From Protonemura montana (taxonomy: Eukaryota; Arthropoda; Insecta; Plecoptera; Nemouridae), in assembly GCA_947568835.1 (NCBI GenBank), contig OX387611.1, positions 6,700,001-6,764,000 on the forward strand: DNA of 64,000 nucleotides, in the 5' to 3' direction. A program made the position numbers and the translations under genes. The notes beneath the pieces were generated by a model that was not told the DNA's origin, ran no database searches, and saw only the letters and a program-made list of their open reading frames with translations. Below, piece by piece: positions 9,301 through 55,500 of this stretch; position 1 is the stretch's first letter, and every line of letters starts with the position of its first letter.

Positions 9301-12300
9301 TTGATGTAGGTCGCCCGAAAAGCGGGGGCCATCCGAGGGGCCGCGAAATTTCTGTCAAAATAAGTGTTTTCAGTTGTAAAGACATAAAAAAAAAAATATA
9401 TATATATATATGTGTATTGCTTGGTTGTCTTGGCCGGCGTACTGGATAGTTTTCCGTACTGGAAACACCGGTTCTCGTGAGATCACCGAAGCTAAGCAAC
9501 AGTGCGCTGAGTCAGGTATTGGATGGGTGTCCATCATACACATGACCAGTTCTGTTCGGGAGAGAGAACCCTATCTATGGTCTTTGGGAGAGAGGTTGGA
9601 GGGATGAAAGTTAAGCAACACTGCGCTGGGTCAGGTATTGGATGGGTGGCCATCATACACATGACCAGTTCTGTTCGGGAGAAAGGTTGGAGGGATGAAA
9701 GTTAAGCAACACTGCGCTGAGTCAGGTATTGGATGGGTGACCATAATACACATGACCAGTTCTGTTCGGGAGAAAGGTTGGAGGGATGAAAGTTAAGCAA
9801 CACTGCGCTGAGTCAGGTATTAGATGGGTGACCATAATACACATGACCAGTTCTGTTCTGGAGAGAGGTTGGAGGGATGAAAGTTAAGCAACACTGCGCT
9901 GGGTCAGGTATCCAGGAGCCTGGAGTAATCCACACCTAACGGGAGAGCACTTACTCTGGATAGAAATAGTACAGGGGATCGTTCCTAGCGATGAGGGTGA
10001 CGAGGAAAGGCACCAATGCCGAGGCGATGATCAACGCGGCCGCGATGCACATTCCTGTCTTGGGGTGCTTGTGCATCACCGGCACCACGAGGAAGCCAAC
10101 GATCGAGAGGTGCATGACGCAGGGCATGAACCAGCTTTGAATCATGCACTGGAAACAACAATATGTTAATAGGATAATTCCTTATCAAAACAACACAAAA
10201 ATACTAAAAATTTACCAAACAAAAACTATTTTAAATGGGTTTTGAATGCTAAGTAAAGGGCAACTGAAATTTCCCAACGTTTCGTTACATGTACTAGTTA
10301 CTTCTTCATGGGTTAGAGCAGTCCTGACAATTGTCCGATAACAAAAGAACCACATAAAATTATAACAATTACCTAGTTCAAGCTTCCTAAATGCATCTAA
10401 ATAAAATAATCAGGGTCAATAACATAAAAACTAATGTATTTTGTATTTTCTGAAATAAAATCCCGAAAAAATTGGTGTTTTTTTACTAACTAACCAATTA
10501 TATGTATGGAAAATTTAGTTGGAAATTTAGTTGTCCTTTACTTAGCATTCAAAACCCATTTCAATTAGTTTTTTTTTAACTAGTGCTAAGGCTAAATTAA
10601 GTAGACATGAGTCTAAAAACCATTAAAAAGTGACCTGACCAAATTTTATTCTTAAAAATTCTTAAAAAGTAGGCCTAGGGCAGAATAAAACAGTTGTTTT
10701 GAAAGCGTTATGTCGCACCGTTCATGCGCAGTAGCCGTCTGAACTTTGGCACTTTAACGTTTGGGTTCTGGCTAACGATCCGTTGAAGACAATGAAAAAT
10801 TAAAGACACAGTTAGAAAGCTGAAAAAATTCTTCTTTGTTCGTTTTGAATTTAATATCATACTTGAATAAAGTTACCTAAAATATGACTTGAATAATATA
10901 TACTTACAATTTCGTGGCCTTTTACGTAGTTGTTTATGTAGAGCAGGTTCCCCCACCAGTTGTTTAGGCAGTTGTCTCTCTCGAGGCCTACCACAAGGTT
11001 CCACATTGGTCCCTCGCCCACGTGGTACAGCAAAGTGGAGTAGAAGGCGACCACCAGCATGTACACCGGGGTCAATCTGTGGAGGAACGTACCGTTAAAT
11101 AACGCTTACAACTGGATACGCTTTCCCTCATAAAGGTTCTTTATAAATTTATATATTTCATTTTTAGAATCCCTTGTAGTTGCACACTTGGAATCCTAGA
11201 GGTCAGAATCGGTCAGATTTGCAAATCTGAGTTTTCGTAACAGCTGGGGATTCCGAATTTGGTCAATCTTTTAACACTACAAAACTACACATAAAAAAAA
11301 AAAAACGAGTCAACCATTTTGAAAACCCTCCTTTCGAAATAGTATCCAGTGATTAAACTTTTTTTATGAACACATTTTTCAGAAAATTTGCACCGAAATA
11401 GATTTTTTTAATTAGTTCCTAAAAGAGTGACATGTCAACCCCAAATGAAGAAGAAAATAATTTTGTTTTTTCCCTGGATTTCCCTTAGAAAAACACTATT
11501 ATAATCCAAAACAACCCCTGTATTGTTGAAATTACCTGATATATCTCACAATCAAGGCAAGAAGTGGATTGACTTTCTGCTTGTCGAGAGTGCGGCACAG
11601 AATGTAGGCGACCAGGAGCCCACTGATGGCGAAGAAACTGTCAACGGGCACGTCACCTTTGTAGATGATGATCGAGTAGAACCGGCCGTATTGCTACAAA
11701 TAACAAACAAAAACAATCATTTAGCTCCACTTCCTATTTACGTATAAAAATAATTTAAAACTCGCTTTAGTTATTTATGTGACTTTATTAACAAATATTG
11801 ACTTCCTTATTATTATCAACACTATAACCGTCTCAAAAACTGATGCCCAAACGTCCCCGTTCGGGCATCAATTTTTGAGATGGTCATAGTGTTGATAATA
11901 ATAAAATACCCCGCGCATTGCAAGCGTTTGCAATTGAAATAAGATTTCATCCTAATATTGACTTTCTTATATTATTATTATATAATATTTTTATTCGACT
12001 ACATGCACAGGAGAAAGAATTGGCTGTTTGTGATCTGCTTATTCCCTATGCCAGCAGAGGTTCTTGCGGTCGAAAATGATTCTAATACATCTAAAACAAA
12101 ATTAGTGTATAAACAAAAAGTGTGTCTATGACTGCTAATATTTCCTATTTTGATATTTTGAAGAAAAAAAAACGGAACGGTTGAGTTCTTGAAAACGAGT
12201 AAAGATGCACATAATTAAAGGAAAAGCGTTTCACTCTCATTTACGCAACTTCCATCTCCCTGAAAATCAAGTCATCGATACGCACGAGCCAATTTATTCG

Positions 12301-15300: not shown

Positions 15301-17332
15301 AAAAGCACGGGGACCAACGGCTTAACGTCTCTTTTGAAGGACGGTACAACGTGAACTGCTAGGTTTCTCTACAAATCCATGCTGACGAGAGGTTGATAAG
15401 CAAGGCGAATTAAGTTGTACTCACTTTCATCCCTTCAACCTCACTCTGCCGAACAGAACTTATTATTATTATTTGTGGTGTTTAACGACTCACTGTTTTG
15501 ACAACTGGCCCTGCGGCACTGGTCTAATGGCGTCGGTGAATGAATGGATGATGATAAAGATGATGATGAACCTAACCTAGCTTAGAAGGGAGGAGGGGGA
15601 ACCCGGTGCCGGCACGTAGCCTACTCCTGTCGAAAAGCACCAAGGGGACCACCGGCTTCACGTCCCTTCCGAAGAACGGTACAACTCGAACAGCAGGATT
15701 CCTCCACAAATCCATGCTGTCGAGAGGTTGATAAGCAAGGCAAGTGAAGTTGCTGTACTAACTTTCATCCCTCCAACCTCTCTCCCGAACAGAACTGGTC
15801 ATGTGTATAATGGTCACCCATTCAATACCTGACTCAGCGCAGTGTTGCTTAACTTCGGTGATCTAACGAGAACCGGTGTTTCCAACACGCCAAACCGTTC
15901 GGTCCGAACAGAACTGGTCGGGTGTATGATGGACGCCCAGCGCAGTGTTGCTTAACTTCGGTGCAGTGATTAACTCCTGAACATTTTTTCAGTCGTTGAA
16001 AATCAAAAATTACTACCTTTATCGGGCCAAACTGTGGTTCTGCTAGTACTTACGATAATCCTGTCCCAGACCGAGCTTGTGGTCGTGTTTTTTTTTTCGA
16101 CTGTGCGTAGCGATAGCGTCACCCTCACCAAGCAATACTGAGCACGAACCGGCTGCGTCACAGCGACGCATCCGTCGAAGTCTCCCAGCTGGTACACGCT
16201 GCCAGAGAGCAGCCCGACAGCACCCTTAACACTGGAGTCCCACACTGAAATAGGAAAAAAGTGCCTTAAAAAAAAAAATTTTTGTTCCAGATTTGCTGAT
16301 ACCCGACGGTTTAATGTATTAGAAACACCGGTCCCAAAGTTAAGCGACATTGCGCAGGGTCAGGTAATGGATGATGATTGATTTGTGGTGGTTAACGACG
16401 CACTGTTTTGACATCTGGCAATGCGGCACTGGTCTAATGGCGTCGGTGAATGTGTGGATGATAGTGATAATGATGAACCTAACCTAGCCTAGATAGGACG
16501 AGAGGAAACCCAGTGCCGGCACGTAGCCTACTCCTGCCAAAGAACACCAATGGGACCACCGGTTTAACGTTCCTTCCGAAGGACGGTACAACGCGAACAG
16601 CAGGATTCCTCCACAAATCCATGCTGTCGAGAGGTTGATAAGCAAGGCGCATAAAGTTGCTGTACTAACATGCATCCCTCCAATCGCTTTCCCGAACAGA
16701 ACGGGTCATGTGTATGATTGTCACCCATCCAATACCTGACTCAGCGCAGTGTTGCTTAACTTCGGTGATCTCACGAGAACCAGTGTTTCCAACACACCAA
16801 ACCGTTCGGTGGTATTGGATGGATGGTTATAGGGTAGAACAGCTTCACTCGCCATTTTTCTTAGCCTCTTGACAGCATGTATTTGTGGAGGAATCCTGTT
16901 GTTCGAGTTCTACTGTCCTTCGGAAGAGTCGTTAAGCCGGAGGTCCTCTGTTTTTTATTTGTTAAAAAAATGGGCTATGCACCTGCAATTTTCCGTTTCG
17001 CCCTTGTAGACTTTCTTCAATACCCTTGTCATTAGCAACATATTCACCGACGCCAATAGCCTTTATTTGCCAGAGGGACTGGTGTAAAAACCGTGCGTGC
17101 AAAAATCAATATATTTTGACTTACTTTGCGTCGCCCATGATGTAGAATTGTTCAGATTATCGAGAAGCGTTTGACTGTCTTCCTTGCATTGAGAATTGTG
17201 CGAGTGAAGAGCTACGATGGGCAGCGTTGGCAAGATTTCCTCCCTGGGTAGCACGTCTGGGTCGGTAGCTGCCGCACTGGCCAACGCCACCAGCGCCATT
17301 ATGAGCCACGGCATGGTTCGGGGGAAACCCAT
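6379..17332 (-). CDS. nrf-6-like: NRF-6-like multi-pass acyltransferase
   Basis: Twelve exons: 17332-17125, 16244-16054, 14805-14585, 14055-13973, 12999-12803, 11693-11536, 11076-10908, 10148-9955, 9351-9213, 8609-8420, 7532-7390, 6547-6379; about 686 aa. All have GT-AG sites and the first ten junctions agree in phase. Residues 1-25 are a signal peptide. Residues ~65-205 are the NRF domain, with MWDSSVKGAVGLLSG, LGDFDGCVAV and the Cys pair around WALCVPASC. Residues ~235-665 are an acyltransferase-3 domain with about ten helices, including CVHGLRVISM...LYHSVF (conserved His), VDSFFAISGLLVAY, YCQFLAHLVI and the terminal LTVEAPI. C. elegans NRF-6 takes part in lipid/drug transport; the substrate here is unknown. 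The last junction does not fit: exon 11 ends in phase 0 and exon 12 needs phase 2, so a micro-exon, odd splice site or one-base indel is required. It is probably expressed, but that point decides whether it is intact. Confidence 0.9.
6940..7140 (+). repeat. Dispersed repeat D1, copy a
   Basis: About 190 bases that recur in inverted orientation at 19600-19800 (shared CTACATCGCCTCTGCC, GTGCAGCCCGTTGCAAGCAA and GGATTCATGCAAGGATCAAC). Lies in the last intron of the NRF-6-like gene. No coding capacity or terminal repeats found. Confidence 0.7.
7617..7990 (+). repeat. GGCCRAACGCCT repeat, copy a
   Basis: Intronic stretch starting GGCCAAACGCCTGCTCTGAT and continuing with a TTCAACTTAGA block, clearly related to 40640-41200, where the same motif forms inverted ends. 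Probably a decayed MITE. The right end is unclear here. Confidence 0.45.
7980..8407 (+). mobile_element. 5S-rRNA-derived SINE, copy 2
   Basis: Full-length plus-strand copy with 5S head (AAGTTAAGCAACACTGCG, GGATGGGTGACC), CTTCGGAAGGGACGTTAAGC core and GTGCGTCGTTA end. Its tail ends about a dozen bases before the donor end of exon 10 of the NRF-6-like gene, antisense to that gene. Confidence 0.9.
9395..9412. repeat. (TA)n microsatellite
   Basis: Short A-run followed by an alternating AT tract, intronic. A second AT tract of this type is at 13349-13368. Confidence 0.8.
9455..9925 (+). repeat. Tandem array of 5S-derived SINE heads
   Basis: Starts as an ordinary SINE head (ACACCGGTTCTCGTGAGATC), then the segment from AAGTTAAGCAACACTGCGCT through GGAGGGATGAAA repeats about five times with a period near 90-95 bases and no SINE body. 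Each unit keeps the GGATGGGTGACC-like C box. The array stops about 30 bases from the donor end of exon 8 of the NRF-6-like gene (9955). Confidence 0.85.
10221..10575. mobile_element. Fold-back MITE 'TGCTAAGTAAAGG', copy 1
   Basis: Ends are inverted copies of about 50 bases: AAAACTATTTTAAATGGGTT...GCTAAGTAAAGGGCAACT on the left and AGTTGTCCTTTACTTAGC...AACCCATTTCAATTAGTTTT on the right. There is no coding frame between. Intron 7 of the NRF-6-like gene. Confidence 0.8.
11205..11410 (+). repeat. Dispersed repeat D2, copy a
   Basis: Shares GAGTTTTCGTAACAGCTG, TTAACACTACAAAACTAC and a downstream TTTTCAGAAAATTTGCACC block with 17700-18110, and inverted with 34090-34575 and 54830-55325. Consensus end not determined. 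Confidence 0.65.
11816..11960 (+). mobile_element. tRNA-type SINE A tail forming a hairpin
   Basis: The tail block ATAGTGTTGATAATAATAAA...ACCCCGCGCATTGCAAGCG...GATTTCATCCTAATA is shared with copies at 37.3 and 60.0 kb. Here an inverted partial copy precedes it: ACTATAACCGTCTCAAAAAC pairs with TTTTTGAGATGGTCATAGT across a six-base spacer (stem about 35 bases, 11820-11895). Intron 5 of the NRF-6-like gene. Confidence 0.7.
12391..12406 (+). repeat. Poly-G tract
   Basis: Uninterrupted G run in intron 5 of the NRF-6-like gene. Length may be unreliable, as such runs often are in assemblies. Confidence 0.8.
12608..12690 (+). mobile_element. tRNA-type SINE B, copy 1
   Basis: Contains GAGCACCCGACCGGCAATTG and a degraded GGTTTCGTACGCC B-box, as in copies at 19047, 21375 and 42279. 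The CCCGA/TTGGG pairing would form an anticodon stem with loop CCGGCAA (anticodon-position triplet GGC). The 5' end is missing, so this is not a working tRNA. Confidence 0.65.
14111..14430 (+). repeat. Minisatellite, 56-63 bp units
   Basis: Five full units and one partial starting CTTGGCATGGACGCTATAGC at 14111, 14167, 14226, 14289, 14352 and 14415. Spacing is 56, 59, 63, 63, 63. Later units gain a TCAATACACAAG segment. Lies between exons 3 and 4 of the NRF-6-like gene, 50 bases upstream (in gene sense) of the exon 4 acceptor. Frames running through it are repeat artefacts. Confidence 0.9.
14901..15054. mobile_element. Fold-back MITE 'TGCTAAGTAAAGG', copy 2
   Basis: Short derivative of the 10221 element: the two inverted ends lie almost back to back, separated by three repeats of TTGATTTAAGTTGTCC type. 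Intron 2 of the NRF-6-like gene. Confidence 0.85.
15165..15460 (-). mobile_element. 5S-rRNA-derived SINE, copy 3 (head truncated)
   Basis: Minus-strand body and tail of the family (TTGACAACGGGCCATGTGGC end, decayed core near 15335). More divergent than the neighbouring copies, and the head is cut at the CCGAACAGAACTT block. Confidence 0.8.
15465..15965 (-). mobile_element. 5S-rRNA-derived SINE, copy 4 plus extra head
   Basis: Complete minus-strand copy to about 15900 with head, core and tail. A second partial head (TGGTCGGGTGTATGATGGAC...CAGTGTTGCTTAACTTCGG) follows to 15963, the same head duplication seen on a larger scale at 9455. Confidence 0.85.
16375..16812 (-). mobile_element. 5S-rRNA-derived SINE, copy 5
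   Basis: Full-length minus-strand copy, from the AACGACGCACTGTTTTGACA tail to the CACCAAACCGTTCGGT start. Intron 1 of the NRF-6-like gene, same strand as the gene. Confidence 0.9.
16812..17110 (+). mobile_element. 5S-rRNA-derived SINE, copy 6 (head decayed)
   Basis: Begins within the head (GGTATTGGATGGATGGTTA), then body with TCCTTCGGAAGAGTCGTTAA. Lies head to head with copy 5 and ends 15 bases from the exon 1 donor of the NRF-6-like gene. Confidence 0.75.
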
Positions 17333-17474
17333 CTCACCTGTTCTGGAGCAAGGTTCACTAGTGTTACAGATAGGCGTTGAGCAAGATTCGTAATTCGCCG
17401 TAAGCAATAAGCTCGAGCTCGGAGTCGCTAATCGCTTGACATCGACTGCCTCATTTGTTGCGATTTGCTATTAC

Positions 17475-17650
17475 AATTTTTGATTTGATTATTGGGGTTT
17501 AACGACGCACTGTTTTGACGACTGGCCATGCGGTACTAGTCTAACAGCGTCGGTGAATGAGTGGATGAATATGAGGATGATGTTGAACCTAATCTAGCCT
17601 AGAAGGCATGAGGGGAAACCTGGTACCGGCACGTAGCCTATTCAACAGAT
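17475..17650 (-). mobile_element. 5S-rRNA-derived SINE, copy 7 (3' half)
   Basis: Tail and part of the body only (AACGACGCACTGTTTTGACG...GGTACCGGCACGTAGCC). It stops abruptly where repeat D2 begins nearby. Confidence 0.75.
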
Positions 17651-17689
17651 TGACGCTTTTCAAAATCAAAAAATGTTATTTCGTCTCAT

Positions 17690-18110
17690 CGATACTCGCG
17701 TTGTAAAAGAGGCTGTTCTAGAAAATTTCCGGTGTTTTTCAAAAAAAAAAAATGAGTTTTCGTAGCAGCTGTGGATCCCAAATTGATTAAATCTGTTAAC
17801 ACTACCAAACTACATTTAAAAAATACTTGAGCCAACCATTTTAAAATGTTTTAATTATTAGTTGTTTCCAGTTTTTACAGATATTTCTTATGAAATGGAT
17901 TTTCCGGAAAATGTGCCCAAACATATTGCTGAAACAGTGGTTACCAACTCCAATTGTAAAATAAAAAAATATCAAAAAAATATTTTCAAATATTTTTTTG
18001 TTAAAACTAGTGCTAAGGATAAATCAAGTAGACAAGAGTCTAAAAACCATCATAAAAAAAAAGATTTTCTGTCCTGGATCCTCCAAAAAGACAATATGGA
18101 GGCGTAACAA
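17690..18110 (+). repeat. Dispersed repeat D2, copy b
   Basis: Contains GAGTTTTCGTAGCAGCTG, TTAACACTACCAAACTAC, ATGGATTTTCCGGAAAATGT, an AGTCTAAAAACCATCATAAA block and a CCTGGATCCTCCAAAAAGAC end. The same blocks occur in inverted order at 34.1-34.6 and 54.8-55.3 kb. Confidence 0.75.
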
Positions 18111-18129
18111 CCCCCTTTACTGGACATAT

Positions 18130-18290
18130 TAAAACTGGATCTAGGTACCGTACCTTTCGGAACGCAGGTCTTCAACTGTGTTGGCTCGAGGACGTCTTCA
18201 CTGTTCGCTGGCACATAGGTGCACCGTGAAACTGACTGCTCCATTCGGAGTGCAGCGATATTCAGGGTCAACGAAAAGGCTGCAGTCACT
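18130..18290 (-). other. Possible minus-strand exon, unassigned
   Basis: A TTTTTAG acceptor (about 18290) and an AAAG/GTACGG donor (about 18152) bound an open minus-strand stretch with MEQSVSRCTYVPANS and a downstream Cys. It lies about 0.8 kb upstream of the NRF-6-like start and could be a 5' exon of that gene or part of a lost gene. I do not recognise it. Confidence 0.25.
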
Positions 18291-18499
18291 AAAAATGAAC
18301 TAGTTTGACTTCTCCAAAGATGTTAATTGTTTGCAGAAACGAGCAAATAGAAACTGATTTTGCAAACCCGCTCATGCAAAGACAATCGTAATGATTACCT
18401 ATGAACCATTTTTTTGCATAAAGATCAAAAAGGTAAAATCAAGTCATCGAGCTAGTTTTTTATTATAAGTAACACTAATTTCCAAAAATGAATGACTAA

Positions 18500-18850
18500 A
18501 CGGTTTGGCGTGTTGGAAACACCGGTTCTCGCTAGATCACCGAAGTTAAGCAACACTGCGCTGAGTCAGATATTGGATGGGTGACCATCATACACATGAC
18601 CAGTTCTGTTCGGGAGAGAGGTTAGAGGGATAGAGGGAGGTTAGAGGGATTCGTGGAGAAATCCTGCTGTTCGAGTTGTACCGTCCTTCAGAAGGGACGT
18701 TAAGCCGGTGGTCCCCTTGGTGCTATTCGACAGGAGTAGGCTACGTGCGGGCACCGGGTTTCCGCTTATCCCTTCTAGACTATGTTAGGTTCATCATCCT
18801 CCTCATAATCATCCACTCATTCACCGACGCCATTGGACCAGCGCCTCCAG
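18500..18850 (+). mobile_element. 5S-rRNA-derived SINE, copy 8
   Basis: Clear head (GGTTTGGCGTGTTGGAAACA...GATCACCGAAGTTAAG) and core with CCTTCAGAAGGGACGTTAAG. A segment between head and body is shortened and the tail is cut at GACCAGCGCC. Confidence 0.85.
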
Positions 18851-42600: not shown

Positions 42601-45600
42601 TTCTAAGGTATGTGAAATTCAAGACATCACTTCGCTCGCTACGCTTATCAATAAACCTAGCTGATTAAAGTTTAGAGAATTTAAATTTGACCTGCAAATT
42701 TGAAACTGTTAAATATTTTTCCAGACGATGACCGAAGTTCAAGCAGTTACTTTCGAGTGGAGCTGACTCAAACTGAAGACTACGTGAGAGACTATCTTAC
42801 TGAGGACGTTTCAAATGAGGCCATCCTCGCCGAGGAGCTAAATCAATATCTCGAACCCGTATTTCCACAAACTAATTACTCCAAGCAGTGGATGGACGAG
42901 AGCCAGCGTTTGCATGTCGAGTTCCTGGTCTCCTCGAAGATCTTGGCATCAATAACCACAGGCGACGCAGAAACCAGCATCTTTGGCGACACCTTCTCGA
43001 TGAGAGTCGATGATGTTGGATTCTGTTCAGAAGGAGAGACGGTCGACGTCGATGGAACCGTCACTCATTGGCCGAAAATATATTTGTGCAAGTATTCTTG
43101 TAACTTTTTTTTATACTGACAAATACTTACACAATTTTATCTACACGGGCTTCGCAAACGCATTGTGAGTTGCGTCGTGAGATGAGCGTATCGATATTTT
43201 ACAACGAAAAAATGTGAAGCCGTTCCTTGGTTCATATCAAAGTAAAACATTTAAAATTAAAAAAAAAAAAAAAAGTTTGTATTAATCCCATGTTTCCAAG
43301 ATGATTGACCAAAAGAGAGGACCGCAACAAAAAATAAAAGATAAAGACGATTGAATGTTGACAACACAATCTTATTTCCTTATCTTCTGGTCTGGTCTGG
43401 TGGTTATCTTCTGGTTCCGGTAAGGAGGGTCTTCTGGTTGGTTTTCTTCTGGTTGAAATTTTAAACTCTGCCGTCTGAAGTAACTGGAGAACAAATCTAG
43501 ATTAATACGATGACCCCGTGACGGTCAATTTAAAAAAAAAAAAAAAATGGTTGAATTGACATGGAATGACCCTATAGGGAAAAATTAAGGTAGTATTTTA
43601 GGTGTAATACAAATTCCGAATTACTCAACTCAATACTCTCGGGAAATACAAGGCGATATCAAAAAGTTTTTTCTGAGTTTCCCACAAATTTCCCTCAGAA
43701 GTATTTCTATCGAGTATTTTATTAGTGACTCAGCAACACGTAAGAATGAAGCCATGCAAAACGATTTACTTCATTATCGAAATTCATGTACCAACCAAAC
43801 GTTCCATGTGAGCTTCGATGACCCGACTATATTCATGGCCTGGATTGTAAAAATAGGAGCATCCTGCTGAAAAATCTTACGTAAGATCTTGTAAGATCTT
43901 ACCAAGATCTTGTCAAGAAAAACTTGCAAGATCTTGTGACAAGATCTTATAAGATCTTGCAAGATCTTGCCACGATTGTTTAAGATCTTGCCAAGTTCTT
44001 ATAAGATCTTGCCAAGAACTTGCCACGATTGTTTAGGATCTTGCCAAGTTCTTATAAGATCTTGCCACGATCTCATGAAATCTTACTACGATCTGATAAG
44101 ATCTTGTTTGAAGATCTTGCAAGATTTCCTTAGATTCATTGTAAAATGGCACGGAAAGGCAAAGTAGGTTTACAAAAAAATGAATGCATATTAGAGATGC
44201 TACCAAATGTATTTTAAAATTGCAAAACTGTATGCACTGTATAACAAATTACAGAAATTGCAGTTTAGATATACTTTCTTCTCTCCAACAACTTCAAAAC
44301 AGCTTCAAAACAAAACAAACAAAAATCAGATAAGAATTGAAAATCAGCAATTACAAACTATCAATGCCCTATCTTTTGTAGGATGTAAACATGAAACAAA
44401 GTTAAGAAAAAAATTGTCAAATAGAATCAAAGCTCTATTATTTGAAAAATATAGTATAAGAATTTTATGAATGCAATTCAGTATACCTATATAGGTGTTC
44501 CCAAAAATAAAAATAAAATACTTTAAAACTTGGCAAATAAAAATCATGAATGCCTCATATAACAATAAATATTTTAAACAATATTAAGATAAAAATGGTA
44601 AAAAAGAACCCTATAAGAAACTCTGATTGAGAAATATAATAAGTATGCAAAAATAATAACCTAAATCAGCACAAAATTCAAACAAGGTACTTAATGAACA
44701 TGAAGAGAAGAGAGGAACGGCCGGCCAGGAAGTGCAGTGCATCCTCTGTCAATAAGGATGTCTTACTGTATCTGTAAAAAAAAAGTAAATGTGTAAAAGC
44801 TTTGTTGCCAGACAAATAACATCCAAAACAAATAAATAAGAGCATCTGTTTTCTAAATTTTTTAAATCTGTGATATACTTTTTTTCAATGAATTACTGAT
44901 TTTACAGAGTAAACAAATTTGTTTTTGTTGTACTATCACAGAATAATAACAGAGGTGGTAAGTAAATGGATTTAGATATGCCATTGTTTGTGGTTTTGGG
45001 ATTTTTTATTCAAAAAGCCTCATTTAGCTGGATTAATTATAGAACTATTTTGATTCTAGGAATCCTTGGCAAAAATATAATTTCTTCTTGATATTTTGTT
45101 TATGCTGTCAAATCCATCAAACATTTTACCTTGAAAAAGCAACTAGCACAGGTTACAAAATGTTGGTAAAGCAGTTTAAGGGGCCCACCAAGTAGTTTTT
45201 TTGGAGTACTTGTATATTATGTGAGGAATATCAATCAATGAGACTGCATTAAAAGACTTTAAAAAAATTAGCGTCTTAGAAATCGCAAATGTTACCAAAT
45301 GCTATTTAAATAGATAGTACGAACATAGATTTTGGAGGAAAAATTCAAATTAACTTACCATAATCATTTTTCTTCCAATGGAGCTTGGAATGGAGGGCAG
45401 AAATAAGTTGGGACATCACACCATGGGCATGGAATCTCAGAGGTTGTTGCCACCAGCCAGGAGAGATTCACAGCACTGCAATAAAAAATGTGCGGTTTTA
45501 AAAACATGGAAACAAGCATCATTTGTACTAGCACCTCCTGATCAATAAATGCCACCATAGGTTACTGAAAATTAATTGATTATTGTAGTTGCATCCTAGC

Positions 45601-48600
45601 AAACTTACCAAGAGTTGTAAAATTGTCCGTTGACATTGCAACGCTATCTTCAAGCGATATAGCTGCTTCTCCTGTGGACAAGGGCAGCTTGTCAGGTAAT
45701 AAAGTGGAGCATTTGTCTTCCAATTCAGTACTGATGAACGTAGCAACGTTTTGAGCTCCAAGACTGAAAAAGTAGGGAGCATGTTGATAAGGTGATGTTT
45801 CCAATTTGCTTCTAGACAAACGATATTCGTTTGCGTTAAACGATAGCGTAAACGATAGCGTTTGAATGTAACAGTGATGCGTACCTTCAAATTACACGAA
45901 ACAAATCAATTGAAAGGTCTCCCCTATTAACTTCAAACCCCGACGACAAAAAATGCCACAATGCAGACGGTAAAAATGACTTCATATTTATAACAATCAC
46001 ATTGCCGAAAAAGACAAATAATTTGTGCAATTAGAGACTAAACAAAGCAACGCGACACGACGCGACGCGACACATCCCCACCAGTCGAAATCTAGTTCAT
46101 ATTGAGGAACGCTGCTCGCTACGAGGATCATTTTGCAAGTCTGCTAAAATGCATATATAGCCCGGCTAATAAAGAATGAGTCGTTGGAGTCTAGTTTTCT
46201 TATCTGCAACAGCAACTCGAGTATGAGTTCAACTTGAGTAGATGCACTACATTTCAGCATCAGCACATTTTTTCTCTTGACAGAAAAGTAAAGAATTGCT
46301 GTTGAGATAAATGAAAGAACTATAACAAGGTATTGGTCCATCGCGCCACTCTTTGTCAGCCGAATGTTTCACACACATGTCACCTATCACCAATGACCAT
46401 GTTATGATTATACAATGACAATTATTATAGCCGAGCGTTAAATTGGAATCCAGTCATTTGTTTTGTTTATACCTGAGATTCACTGTGAATGAAAAAACAC
46501 AGTAAATTCACTGTGATTATAAGAGAGTGTTCAGAGATAATTTATTCTTATTGTATTTGTTCTTACCAAAATAACAACTTGCATAACAGCGAAACGTATA
46601 CACAAAATAACCAATATTGTATAGGTTCGCCAAAAGAAAATCTTGAGTGCAAATTCTACAAAGTAAATGTATGTACCGTATTGACTATAAGTTTGTTTCG
46701 TACTTACTTGTGAATTCGAAAGTCTTCGTTGGTCGAAAACACAGAAGAAAGTACGCTTGTACATAAAGCTAATTCTTCGAATTTGAGAGTTTAATTCTTC
46801 GGAAATCACATAGGGCCCAGCACCAATGTTTGATAAAGCTCTCATCCACGTAGAGAAAAGCACACGAGGCATTTTTGAGAACAATACCTTCCGTGATATT
46901 TGCTATAGTTGCATAATAACACAGTTGATTTATCAAAGTGTTCAACGACGCACTATTTTGCTAACAGCCATCGTTGTCAGCAGCCTAAAGACGTCGGTAA
47001 ATCAGTGGATGATGATGGTGTTTATTGTAACATAGGATTGAAAAGGTTGTGCATTGCTAAATGCAATGCAAAATTCCTGTGGAGTTTAAAATAATTCCGT
47101 ACAAACCTCGGATTGAAATAAATATAATTAAACATTTACAATAATGTGCATCTTGTGGTACAAAATGTACGACTCTGTGAGAAAATAATAAAATGTAAAT
47201 TTATTAGTAGAAAGATTAAATATCAGTTGAAAGGCCAAAATTCGGTCCCAGTCCAACAATTGCCACATACCTACTAAACAAAACTTAGCATGCGAATTTA
47301 TCATTTAGAATGAAAAATAGATATATTGCACTACTATAGAGCCCGAATGGAGAATCGCATCATATATTCACATTAAACCGACATTCAGCTTATCACCGAA
47401 CGGTTTGGCATGTTGGAAACACCGGTCCTCGTGAGAACACCGAAGTCAAGTAACACGCGCTGGGTATTATATGAGTGACCATCACACACAGTTCTGTACC
47501 GGAGAGAGGTTATAGAAACAATGCGTCGTTAAATTTCACAGTTTTACGAGGTATTGTTGTCACAACGACCCCTAAGTATAATGACGTTGTAAACCTTTCT
47601 GCAGAAAAAGTTACAACTGGATTATGGTCCAGTTGTCCAGAAACTCAGAATCAGAGGGATCAGATCCAGAACCAGAGCATCCAACAAGACAAACATTAAT
47701 CTCATTTGTGTGCTCTCCATTCACGAGTGCGTTTTCTCACCGAGCAAGATCTTGCAGTTATCAATTATTATTTTAGAAGACTTTAAAGTCGGAAACGCAG
47801 AATTCTGCGTGCAAGATCTTTCAAGAATCGCAACACAAAAAAAATGATTTCAAGAACTTGCTAAGAACTTGCCAAGATATCGTTTCCTTGCCAAGATTCC
47901 AAAAATCTTGCAGCTATGTAAGATCCCACGGGACCGTGTCAAGATCTTGTCAATTTCTTACCAAGATCTTGAACAAATCTTGTCTGAAGTGAAAAATCTT
48001 AGATGTTTTCAAGAAATTGCCAAGAAATTGGCAAGATCTTGCTTCTTGCCAAGATCTTGCTAAGAATTTTCAGCAGGGCATACCCGTGTCCTCGCCCCAC
48101 TCCACTGCACGCCACTGATCTTCAGATTGCTAAAAGTAAAGACCTAGAACCTTAAAGATGTATCAGTTATAACCTTGTAACTATATCAGTATTCTTATAA
48201 GATCGTTGTATTACATTAAATAATACATAGAAAGCATGCCTTTAAAATAATATAAAAAAAGCTCGACAGATTTAAGATTAAAAAAAAAAAATAAAACTTA
48301 GCTAAACGTAACAGTTTACAAAGCTCCCAAACCAAAAGACCACCGAATCTGAAATTAACTTTGATTGCAGCTACGGGTTACTACCAATACGTCACCAACG
48401 CGTCAACGGGCGCCATCACCAGGCGCAAATGTAGTTTCAGCAACGATATCTTCCACGGCGAATGGCTGCCGAAGCTTTCCAGGTGGGAGCTCGTCTGGAA
48501 GGACTGCACTTCTGAAGAGAAATTCATCAACGAGGAGCATTACATTCAGTTCCTCAATTCATCTGATATAGAACGCCGCCACGCGAATGTACTGCACTAC

Positions 48601-50217
48601 TTCACTTTAGCTCCTGGAAACGCAACGACACTCCAGGAAGTCACACGCCTTGTGGATCGCAACGTTAGGGCACAAAACAAGTTGTCCGAGTCAATAATCG
48701 GCGACCTCATAACCATCACGGCGAGCCTCAAGCTGGACTCTGACTTCGTTGTAGCGTTAGAGCCACGTGCTTCTCTGGTAGTGGCCGAACTTAAAAACAG
48801 CATGTCTGCCGAGGGGTTTACGCTAGACGTCCAGTACTACGACTCTAATCAGCTAGACAATATCACGGCGAACAGGAAGCCGACCATTGAAGGAAACGCA
48901 CCGTTCGCGTTCGACGTTTCGGCTAGACTTCTGGAAGCTCACACACGTGTGGTCTTCGTAATCATCTGGAGGAACCATTTCTATGAGTATCTGGAAGATA
49001 AATTACCATCAAATCAATATCTTGAATTGACTGTAATTTTTCCACGCCAAGGCGAGGTGTCAGCGTGGTCGTTTGCAATGTACGGCAACCACTATGTCGA
49101 CATTACGTACGATACATCTGTGATGCTCTTTGGGTTTCCAGGCGGACCTACATTTATATTTCTCAACTGCGTTGCGTGGAGCAACGACCTCGCTGATTGG
49201 ACAAACCAAGGCTGCAAGAAGTTGTACACCGATGTAGGTAATTTCAGCACCTGTCGTTGCAGCGGCAAGTACTTTGTCATGAAGGACAGCGTTCCGATTG
49301 CAAGGTACGCTCTGAAGAAAGGTTTTGCAATGCACAACCTAGATTTTAACAACGACCTTTTTACCGACTTCTTTAAGGACAAACCTGGCCTGATGGTAGC
49401 TACCACCATCTTTTGCCTACTATCCGTATTTGGTTTGGGTTCCATTATTGGCACGGCCATTTTCTTTAAGCAATGGCGGGAAAATATGGGCCACAAGATT
49501 CTCCTGCAAATGATACTGGCACTGACTTGCAACCTAGTTCTCGGTTTCGTCGTCACTTTTAAGCGCATGACTACAGAGAGCATCGGCTGCTTGGTCTACG
49601 GGGTTCTGCGCCATTACTCGTTCCTAGCTATGTTCCTCTGGATGCTAGTGTTGTCTTGCCTCCAGCTAAAGAGGCTGACGACCGTTGCAGGAGCGAAGGC
49701 GACCTCCCACTTGCTCCTGAAAGTCTCGTTGTTTGCGTGGGGTTTGCCTTTGGTGCCCATAGTCATTCTCCTTGGTTTAAACCCAAGCTTGTACCAGACT
49801 GACCGGTTCGACCGAGGATACTGCTATCCCGAGGGAATCGTCTTCCAGATAACTGTCCAAGGACCGGCAGGAGCTGTCCTGTTTGTGAACTTTGGCATTT
49901 TCGTCAAGATCGTGATTCACATCTTTGACTGTTGTAACAAGAACAAAGTTACGCGTCATAGTAAAAATGAGAGGGCTGAGCAGTTAAACAAGTTTAAGAC
50001 CAGCATTTTTATGTTCTTTTTGTTCGGATTCAGCTGGGTCTTTCATATCTTCTCCGAGGAGCGTGTCCTCGTCAGCGACTTCCTATTTGAATATCTATTT
50101 TTAATGACGACCACCACGCACATATTCTCTCTAGCACTCTTCTTTGTAGTATTTCAGGAAAGTACGAGAAATAATTGGGACACTCTTAGAAGGAAGGCTG
50201 CAATAAAGAAACGTTAG
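39643..50217 (+). CDS. Adhesion-type GPCR with one GPS module
   Basis: Exons 39643-39921, 41316-41448, 42725-43099 and 48371-50217; 877 aa if the exon 3 donor is at 43100 (TT/GTAACT), the only one tried that keeps phase with exon 4. The stronger-looking GTATTC donor at 43092 would need an unseen exon. Residues 1-20 are a signal peptide (MHTAALVVFLAAVFC), followed by a Cys-rich ectodomain. The GPS-like module at ~529-559 has CVAW...W...C...CRC but no HL[T/S] cleavage tripeptide, so self-cleavage is doubtful. Seven helices span ~603-864, with the family marks LFAWGLPLVP in helix 4 and FFLFGFSWVFHIF in helix 6. A plasma-membrane receptor; ligand unknown. Paralogue of the convergent gene ending at 52535. 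Intron 3 is mostly a 4.2-kb transposable element. Confidence 0.85.
40165..40372 (+). repeat. 41-bp tandem repeat
   Basis: Five units of AAATAACCTGGATAGAGCAT followed by AGGATCCAGCCAGTTGATCTT, about 41 bases each, in intron 1 of the plus-strand GPCR. Confidence 0.85.
40640..41200. mobile_element. GGCCRAACGCCT fold-back repeat, copy b
   Basis: Left GGCCGAACGCCTCGTTTGAT...GAACTAAATTTACAGA and right (inverted) GGCCAAACGTCTGCTATGTT...GAACCAAATTTGCAGA match over about 38 bases. Right-end-like sequence recurs in intron 2 at 42490-42612 (AAATGTGCTCTGCAAATTT and GGTATGTGAAATT). Relative at 7617. Confidence 0.65.
42279..42370 (+). mobile_element. tRNA-type SINE B, decayed copy
   Basis: GCGCCCGGATAGCTCAGTCT (A box), a mutated anticodon region and CATAATCCGGTTCGGTCGC (B box). 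The arms do not pair well enough for a tRNA. Intron 2 of the plus-strand GPCR. Confidence 0.6.
44690..46872 (-). ncRNA. Possible spliced transcript inside the 4.2-kb element
   Basis: Minus-strand signals: an ATG-led stretch 46872-46712 (MPRVLFSTWMRALSN...) ending CAA/GTAAGTACG; an exon of about 155 bases between CTTTTTCAG (about 45764) and CTTG/GTAAGT (about 45609); an exon between TTTTTATTGCAG (about 45482) and TATG/GTAAGTTA (about 45361); and a last acceptor TTTTTTTTACAG (about 44773). The sites are strong, but no reading frame stays open across them: from the first exon it stops 13 codons into the second. Either a non-coding transcript, a decayed gene of the element, or chance. Confidence 0.3.
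47395..47545 (+). mobile_element. 5S-rRNA-derived SINE, internally deleted
   Basis: Head with GGTTTGGCATGTTGGAAACA joined almost directly to the GAAACAATGCGTCGTTAAAT end; the whole body is missing. Lies inside the AAGATCTTG element. Confidence 0.8.
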
Positions 50218-52534: not shown

Positions 52535-55500
52535 CTAGAGGACCGCGTCGTCACCAATCTCCTTTCCTCGTGTAGAATGCGCAGTGTACTCCACGACTAA
52601 CTCCCCGGATGCAGACGTGATTGCAAAAATGCTGACATCCGGCGATTCACTCTCAGCTTGGTTCACTTTCAATGTCGCTGGCTGCTCTGTTACCACAAGC
52701 CCGTTACCTTTCAAAGCTTTAGCTACTTTTTTCTTAGGCGTCTTTGGTTTGAAGAGTTTTGGCTTTGTGGTTTTGACCGTATTGACCGCAATCTTCTCAC
52801 CAAACAATAGAAATAGCCAAGAGGCTCTTGCAGAGTCGTCCAAAGCCACAAAAAATATATACATGACAAACCCTTGAATAGGGTCCAATATCTTGTAAAT
52901 GTAACCCAACGCGTCGCTGTGGTACCCGAGGTCGTTGAACATCTCGAACACAGTGGGAATACCGAAGAGGAAAAACATCATGGCAGTCTGCTTGAGTTGC
53001 CGTTTAACAACGTCTTTCTCCGATCCACCATGTTTCTTGAGTTCCTCGTCGTTCCAGAGACTACACCCGTTGGTCATGTTACGGATGATTGCTGTCAGCA
53101 ACCCGAGGTTTAGCAAGGTTATAACGACAACGGGAACCAAGTAAAGAGTGTAGTGCGTTAGTTTATTTGGAGTGCAGAAATAGAGTTTTGGATCCAGAGA
53201 TAACAGTACGACCAAAGGAATTAGTGGCACTCCCCAGGCCAGCAGGCTGACCTTTAAAAGCAGGTGAGAGGTTGATGACGCACCGACGACGCTCGAGAAC
53301 TTTCTATATTGAAGAACGGACATTACAAGGCTCCAGCAATAATGCACGAGCCTGGTGTAATGAACTAGAATTACAAAGATTATGAGCGGGACATTTAATA
53401 TTTTCACTTCTGCGTAGATGATGTGAGTTTCACGATATATGGTCAAGATCAGGTAGAGGAACGACGAAGCGGCGAGCTGCAACAGGATCTTGTTGCTGCG
53501 TTCCTGGCGCCATTTTGGAAATAAAATAGCCGTTAATGTGATGATTATGAAACCGCAGAAAGAGAACGAAGCTCCTTGAAAAAACATAATACTTGTACCG
53601 TCGAAAGTGGTGATCCTCAAAAAGTTTGGCATATCTGTGTACTCATAGATGATGATTTTCGAGACTTTTTGAAAAGCTATGTTGCACGTGCACGATACAT
53701 AATCTGTGTAAGCATTCAAGGTGCACAAGCTTTCAGTCCAGTTACTGACGCTATTGTCCCACGTCGCGCATGCGATCTTCACGTAGTCCTTCGGATCCTC
53801 GACAGGCTGGAAATATACTTCAAAGTTCGTAGCTTGTGGAAAGTTGTAGTCATAATCTTCAACACCACCAATCCCAATGTCTACGTACAAGTCAATCTGA
53901 CGGGAGTTAAAAACCGGAACAGTGGTCAAAGTGTACGGGTACGGAGACACGTTTAACGGGTATACCACAAATATAACCCGATTTTTAGCCAGCAAATAAT
54001 TAATGCTACTGACAAAAAAGCATGCAAAGGTAGGATTCATTTTTCGTACTGTATCGTAATTTGCTGTTGTTAAAATCTTTACCTCAGTGCTCTGGTTTCT
54101 TTCAAAGTAGACACCACAAAAAAAGTACGCAAATACATCTCTGAAATGCCCACCCAGGTGTCCGACCACCACGACTGACATCTCTGAAGTCGTAGCTACG
54201 TCACCGTGTGTCGAGAGGACAGCATTGGAAAACAGATCGCTGGCTACGTCGGAGTTCTTCGAGCTCCACTTGCGTTGGATTCTGGCGAAAATCAAGTGGA
54301 CCGGCTCGTTAGGATCATCGTAGAAGCGAAAGAATGCTAGGTCGATGTCCTTTATAATCCACACCATTTTGTCCGAGAAGATGGTGGCCGTGTCTGCCCA
54401 TTTCAGCATCTTGTGGTAAAGGTACAGCATTTTATAGGCCAGGTTGTCGGTGATGGGCATTAGCGACACGTTGTGTATGAGTTTCGCTCCTTGCTCGAAG
54501 AGGATGTCTGTGTCGTCGAAGGAGTCAGCGCCGATGCGTGCGTAGAGGTCGTCGTCAAACGTCACGACGCAGTACCTGGGAGAGTTAAGCGAGTGTTAGA
54601 AATAGTTGTACTGGGTTAGTGTTAAGGCATGAGGGAAACTGTAACATCGACTGAATCGTCATAACTAGGGCTTTGCAAAAACAGCTTCAGTTGCATTGTT
54701 CATGACCAAGACAGGTGTATGTATAAACAATGCTGCGACGTAACTAGCTTTGTACATATTTCATATTTTCCGTAAAATTTGAGCTTGTTTTTTTAATTAT
54801 TATGACTTGAGATAATAAAAGGGGGCAGTGTAGCCTCCACCTTCTTTTTCTGGGGGATCCAGGGAACGAAATCCCATTTTTTATTCATTGATTGGGGCTG
54901 GTAAAAACTGTTACAGCAACTAGAAAAATTTCTTTTAAGGTACATTTTCCGGAAAATCCATTTAAAAAAAAATGTATATAAGCTGGATAGATACAACTAA
55001 TAAGGGAGACTTTTCAAATATTTTGGCTCGAGTATTTTTTTCTATTTGTAGTTTGGTAGTGTTCTCAGGTTGAAGAAACCTGGGATCCACAGCTGCTACA
55101 AAACTCTGATTTTTTTTTAAAGAAAATCACCAGAAAAACGCCATGAAACGTTTTTTTTTCAACGAGTGTAATAACGACAAATAATATTTTGATTTTGAAA
55201 AGCTATCATATCTTGCTAAAAGTGTGACGAGTCGCCTAGTTTTTGTTTCGTCGCGATCGGACATGTGGTTTGGCCGATTAATCGTATCCAGTAAACCTAG
55301 ATCCTGAGTAAGCACCCAATACAACAGCCTTCATGGTACATTTTCTCAGATTATTATTACCCACATTTACACGCACAAATAATGTGAACCGACTTTTTTT
55401 GAATAAAATAATACAATGAAACTGCGTACCTGTACGCGATGTATCTTCCACCGGAAAGCGTCATGTTGACATTGGCTGACAGACTGCAATTGCATACATT

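Follow-up and report, generated by a model that had tools for sequence, protein, structure and literature searches.

Transposons Related to CACTA (TRC) are animal transposons with terminal inverted repeats (TIRs) that start with CCC; their target duplication is 2 bp long, as empty sites bear out (PMC1636069). SmTRC1 and the TRC elements of Tribolium and Aedes share the CCC start and the 2-bp direct repeat, and DeMarco et al. report the duplication in 7 of 14 SmTRC1 copies (PMC1636069). Spongebob_HMa of Hydra is assigned to the TRC group by the same combination of CCC and 2 bp (PMC4298943). Plant CACTA elements contain subterminal direct and inverted repeats that extend over several hundred bases (PMC8978399). 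These repeats are bound by TNPA and act in cis, and deletion derivatives can receive the proteins in trans (PMC2613891). Here, we describe a 4.2-kb repeated element of the plecopteran Protonemura montana, located in a window of 64,000 nucleotides (contig C14, positions 6,700,001-6,764,000; the genome comprises 258 Mb in 34 contigs). The element is probably a TRC derivative. The reading favoured here, with a probability of about 0.72, is that of a DNA transposon of the cut-and-paste type that is non-autonomous, has TRC-type (animal CACTA/EnSpm-related) ends, and is moved in trans; this kind of system is already known.

The element belongs to a family of closely related copies. A whole-element search of the genome, in which the best 35 of 1,396 candidates were scored and copy counts are accordingly lower bounds, finds at least 25 copies that span query base ≤31 to ≥4203, plus partial copies. 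The exact 17-base end pattern CCTGCTGAAAAWTCTTR occurs at 109 places, 100 of which are listed, and its reversed pattern, used as a control, at none. Some of the listed ends are unpaired, for example those at C14:6905412, C11:17383998, and C1:28527338. For quantitative comparison, loci L009-L038 (n=30) were kept only if the 17-base pattern stood at each end with no more than one substitution. This leaves 23 paired copies; the remaining seven loci (L013, L032, and L034-L038), whose paired end is absent within the piece examined, are excluded from the counts. Identity to the majority sequence is 97.7-99.6%, with the window copy the most diverged, and pairwise identity among the 23 copies is 96.8-99.9% (median 98.5%). 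The family is young, recently amplified, and mobile. An earlier reading of the window (the original prediction) had concluded that the element moved as a unit, which the paired sister copies with the same ends bear out, and the genome-wide search recovered further copies that also end alike.

The original prediction placed the borders at 43863 and 48077, with termini CCTGCTGAAAA and TTTTCAGCAGG. These termini are present there, but the true ends lie one base further out. In 22 of the 23 paired copies CCTGCTG is preceded by C, the window copy alone having T, and CAGCAGG is followed by G in all 23; the TIR is therefore CCCTGCTGAAAA (CCC...GGG), one base longer than first described, and it has the CCC start of TRC elements. 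Both ends share a 12-base repeat, the window's first base excepted, and the ends of copy L019 are 88% alike over 57 bp. Termini that had not been assigned to a known superfamily are thereby placed provisionally as TRC-type, by CCC and the 2-bp duplication.

The flanks of the 23 copies define this duplication, which is the second mark of TRC elements. At the corrected border, they match at 2 bp in 20/23 copies, at 3 bp in one (L014), and at 4 bp in none, and the flanks of L027 and L028 match at neither 2 nor 3 bp. When flanks from different copies are paired as a control, 13.8% of the 506 pairings agree at 2 bp, and against this background the binomial P of the observed matches is about 8e-15. 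The duplicated dinucleotides at the 20 clean sites, in element orientation, are TA and AA (five each), CA, TG, and TT (two each), and CT, CG, AT, and AG (one each).

Two sister copies have empty sites. The target of L020 is a set of 5S-derived repeats, and its uninterrupted 20-mer, with a single CA, has seven occurrences on the window's + strand: two lie within Rfam 5S matches and three in a 91-bp tandem repeat at 9586-9911. The target of L029 is another tandem repeat; when the flanks of this copy are joined at a single TT, they are identical to an uninterrupted paralogue at 78/78 positions. No empty site was found for the window insertion itself. The target-site duplication is 2 bp, CA in the window. 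The 4-bp GCAT duplication proposed earlier has to be abandoned: at the border used there, a 4-bp match occurs in only 2/23 copies (the window copy and L033), and the empty sites of the sister copies, with a single dinucleotide each, show that GCAT is not duplicated. The GCAT/GCAT appearance is due to the T that replaces C as the first TIR base in the window, in combination with chance bases beside CA. The features of the window copy are collected in Table 1.

Table 1. Features of the element in the window (positions are those of the 64,000-nucleotide stretch).
Feature	Position	Strand	Basis or remark
Whole element, corrected borders, 4,217 bp	43862..48078	+	First base T; C in 22/23 copies
Target duplication, left copy, CA (2 bp)	43860..43861	.	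Flanks and sister-copy empty sites
Target duplication, right copy, CA (2 bp)	48079..48080	.	Flanks and sister-copy empty sites
Left terminal inverted repeat, family sequence CCCTGCTGAAAA	43862..43873	+	Paired copies
Right terminal inverted repeat	48067..48078	-	Paired copies
5' subterminal array of palindrome AAGATCTT	43874..44137	.	Motif counts
3' subterminal array of AAGATCTT	47735..48066	.	Motif counts
Core without recognised transposase domain	44138..47734	.	Frame scans, copy lengths
Exon-like remnant in core, no Pfam family, contains SLGAQNVATFISTELEDK	45609..45763	-	CAG before, GT after (by eye)

The ends of the element are filled with copies of the palindrome AAGATCTT. In the window copy, the first 275 bp hold 12 exact motifs, the last 345 bp hold 6, and the 3,595 bp between hold none; with at most one mismatch, the counts are 17, 10, and 1. 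In 500 letter shuffles, the count with at most one mismatch averages 0.21 for the first 275 bp and 0.24 for the last 345 bp, and it never exceeds 2. The arrays are therefore not a product of chance, and the dense palindromes reported at both ends in the original prediction stand. Across the 23 copies, with lengths taken to a fixed anchor, the 5' array measures 285-493 bp with 10-27 exact motifs, and the 3' array 358-391 bp with 6-9. Since the 5' array differs in length among otherwise near-identical copies, its repeat number is not tightly fixed. At the helical repeat of 10.5 bp, the motifs of the 5' array are weakly phased (approximate P 0.036) and those of the 3' array show no phasing (0.90); among 28 motif periods tried, 11.0 and 10.0 bp score best, and no phasing is claimed. 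With these arrays, the family shares a mark of plant-type CACTA elements, namely direct and inverted subterminal repeats that cover several hundred bases. The CACTA core and 3-bp duplication of the plant type are absent, with a core of CCCTG and, as noted above, a single 3-bp match.

The core between the arrays is near-constant in length (3,497-3,571 bp in the 23 copies). No transposase family is found in the 10 frames scanned in the window copy (of 51 frames of at least 40 aa) or in 35 frames of at least 45 aa in copy L019, so the impression that no transposase is recognisable holds for both copies, and the Transposase_21 domain encoded by TRC elements is likewise missing from these frames. 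The best frame matches are weak and unrelated: LRR_13 (E 0.0012) and GPR158_179_EC (E 0.0039, below its cut-off). A possible capture of a GPR158-like gene depends on this single weak frame and is unconfirmed with the longer frame of L046.

It is unlikely that the 4.2-kb element is autonomous with a core that encodes an unrecognised multi-exon transposase. Exon-like pieces with splice-like borders, judged by eye, would suit such a gene, as would open frames in some relatives: a 139-aa frame is intact in L046 (L046:138-554), two other places keep it free of stops over 139 and 146 aa, and L041 keeps a 207-aa open frame. A few 150-bp windows also show an excess of changes at one codon position (for example, 24/13/37 and 22/14/33). 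However, the cores of the diverged relatives L041, L046, L048, L049, and L050 have no steady codon periodicity, and among the 4.2-kb copies this 139-aa frame is divided between two frames and interrupted by stops in nearly every row. Together with the absence of a transposase family from the scanned frames, this broken frame and the lack of steady periodicity lead us to regard the element as very probably non-autonomous.

Candidate mobilising enzymes are present elsewhere in the genome. The profile of Transposase_21, the transposase domain of CACTA elements, has five matches, all with E 4.1e-7 and above cut-off, in open frames of 589-785 aa at C5:20804046, C8:74901, C10:58635, C16:23791064, and C30:3688. 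In the proposed mechanism, a TRC transposase of the Transposase_21 type, encoded at another place in the genome, would cut at the CCC ends, and an element-encoded or host protein would bind several AAGATCTT palindromes and help to pair the two ends. Array binding is modelled on TNPA at the subterminal repeats of plant CACTA elements. The arrays may thus act as a binding platform, as the original prediction suggested, which would agree with the role of CACTA subterminal repeats (PMC2613891). Because the CCC start, the 2-bp duplication, and the subterminal repeats are all present and Transposase_21 is not found in the scanned frames, the element is called non-autonomous with TRC-type ends.

Several observations weigh against this assignment. 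TRC elements, as described in PMC1636069, encode the Transposase_21 that is not found here, and no Transposase_21 element with the family's ends is seen among the ends listed. A distance of 1.9 Mb separates the match on C5 from the closest end listed, C8 and C10 are without any end among the 100 of 109 listed, and C16:23791064 and C30 fall beyond those listed. Three of the 23 copies are without a 2-bp match, one of which has 3 bp instead and two of which have none. CCC and 2 bp are short features that another superfamily could share, and the binding of a protein to AAGATCTT is putative.

Among the described elements closest to the family are those of the TRC group. Like SmTRC1, the family starts with CCC (CCCT is also found in Tribolium) and makes a 2-bp duplication, and SmTRC1, at 4.5 kb, was likewise found as an intron-sized insertion (PMC1636069). 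Unlike in the family studied here, the TIR of SmTRC1 is 54 bp long and includes an internal repeat, and SmTRC1 carries a tandem-repeat region that is not described as a palindrome array in the available text, and the TIRs given there for TRC elements differ from the family TIR beyond CCC/CCCT (PMC1636069). Spongebob_HMa/EnSpm-4N1_HM shares CCC, the 2-bp duplication, and the presence of many copies (more than 50 full-length ones in its case), and its authors did not find its exact transposase frame; it differs in its TIR, CCCAGCCAACATTGAC, and the available text of the source mentions no palindrome array for Spongebob_HMa (PMC4298943). The plant CACTA elements Spm/En and Tgmt* combine a short TIR with close-set subterminal repeats that are unequal between the ends, as in the present family, and their deletion derivatives are mobile in trans, as is proposed here; the CACTA core, the 3-bp duplication, and motifs of 12 bp (En-1) and 17 bp (Tgmt*) set them apart (PMC2613891, PMC8978399). 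ATon elements of Aedes aegypti are also non-autonomous families with TIRs whose autonomous partner is not found, but they are under 500 bp long and have a specific AT dinucleotide at the insertion site (PMC3422177).

Among the papers listed in searches of the literature, with Repbase and Dfam outside their scope, none of the titles listed for the motif and TIR strings concerns transposons, and no such family turned up among those listed on EnSpm elements with subterminal or palindromic repeats or on animal CACTA elements with subterminal repeats. A DNA transposon lineage outside the named superfamilies, with varied 2-bp duplications and palindromic arrays, would account for the lack of a transposase linked to the family and for an array motif that, as a perfect 8-10 bp palindrome, is unlike the motifs reported for plant CACTA elements (PMC2613891). 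Such a lineage is nevertheless quite improbable, as CCC and 2 bp already fit the animal TRC elements (PMC4298943, PMC1636069) and Transposase_21 genes are present in the genome.

Other named superfamilies are excluded by their target sites. Tc1/mariner elements duplicate a TA dinucleotide. PHISTA and ESTA do so as well (PMC12730594), and TA is found in only 5/20 clean sites. ISL2EU elements duplicate AT (PMC4482050), which is present in only 1/20. Kolobok and piggyBac duplicate TTAA, and Kolobok also has 5'-RR ends (PMC9587614); a TTAA duplication is not seen in the paired copies.

Other candidate enzymes were rejected. By eye, none of the DDE_Tnp_4 matches listed (154 in the genome) lies inside a paired element, and the same is true of YqaJ (19 matches) among the ends listed. 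A partner with the same 12-bp TIR and a different continuation (CCCTGCTGAAAANV) has 12 places compared with 18 for the reversed control, which is chance. At two loci on C15 (L045 and L047), the first 83 bp of the element are followed, after about 1 kb, by a 416-aa frame with a THAP domain (P0001). At C15:2247567-2259397 (L047 and L032, 12 kb), this THAP block splits the 5' array of one otherwise near-complete element whose two outer ends carry TA; some 11 bp of array are present at each block junction, and the block was therefore inserted later. P0001 is thus rejected as the transposase. It is very improbable that the family is part of a THAP-transposase element (Kolobok- or ISL2EU-like): the 83 bp that precede the THAP frame at the two C15 loci speak for it, but the block is a later, nested insertion, no other near-identical P0001 copy is within 90 kb of a listed end (by eye; a copy on C28 is beyond the list), and the duplication is neither TTAA nor always AT.

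The C15 THAP block carries arrays of a 148-bp repeat. A P0001 fragment is located about 1 kb from a YqaJ match on C16, which would fit an ISL2EU-like family, as ISL2EU elements combine THAP with YqaJ (PMC4482050). An insertion of 1.8 kb in the C11 copy (L040:53-1835) holds another THAP protein (E 1.8e-8) and has an apparent 8-bp duplication.

Longer members of the family were considered as possible carriers of the enzyme and rejected, as nested insertions seem to account for the extra length of L039, L040, L042, and the C15 locus. The extra segments have junction overlaps of 9 and 3, 8, 16, and about 11 bp, respectively; these values come from BLAST coordinates, with a base-by-base reading for C15 only. 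Two further copies are interrupted (C15:74033-82725 and C14:10266062-10274023). A short form of 0.98-1.26 kb has the same ends and is represented by L043 (C3:27068450-27069990) and nine other pairs among the ends listed. L043, the only short form read, contains copies of the 148-bp repeat and has CA on both flanks. All ten listed short-form pairs are less than 1 Mb from a contig end, perhaps in shared subtelomeric blocks. The variant CACTGCTGAAAA, in which the second base of the TIR is A, occurs at 125 places genome-wide compared with 16 for its reversed pattern, and the 100 places listed are concentrated on C7, C8, and part of C4 (C4:330000-740000).

The window contains two secretin-type seven-transmembrane receptor genes, at 48295-50214 on the + strand (7tm_2 E 5.9e-22) and at 52538-54595 on the - strand (E 2.9e-15). 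The frame downstream of the element belongs to the first of these and also has a GPS match (0.0013) below its cut-off. A donor-like GT at 43847 and an acceptor-like AG at 48369-48370, both identified by eye, delimit a likely intron, most of which is occupied by the element, starting about 15 bp past the donor-like GT. The original placement in intron 3 of a receptor gene is plausible as far as an intron of a secretin-type receptor is concerned, given the splice-like borders and the 7tm_2 domain. The window also holds four 5S rRNA matches above the Rfam cut-off, at 9441-9911 and 15783-18614, with the 91-bp tandem repeat beside one of them.

A more specific form of the TRC-type reading is tentative and rather doubtful: a TRC/CACTA-type family in which an expandable perfect-palindrome array would serve as the end-recognition platform for a palindrome-binding partner protein. 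If this were true, the drifting number of sites at one end could set how each copy competes for a shared transposase.

With exact borders, a target rule, and a probable enzyme class, the formerly unplaced repeat becomes a non-autonomous transposon that is open to testing. For annotation, the findings provide corrected borders for a family of at least 25 near-complete copies. The variable palindrome array in near-identical copies is a natural dose series with which the effect of the number of subterminal sites on CACTA-type transposition outside plants could be examined.

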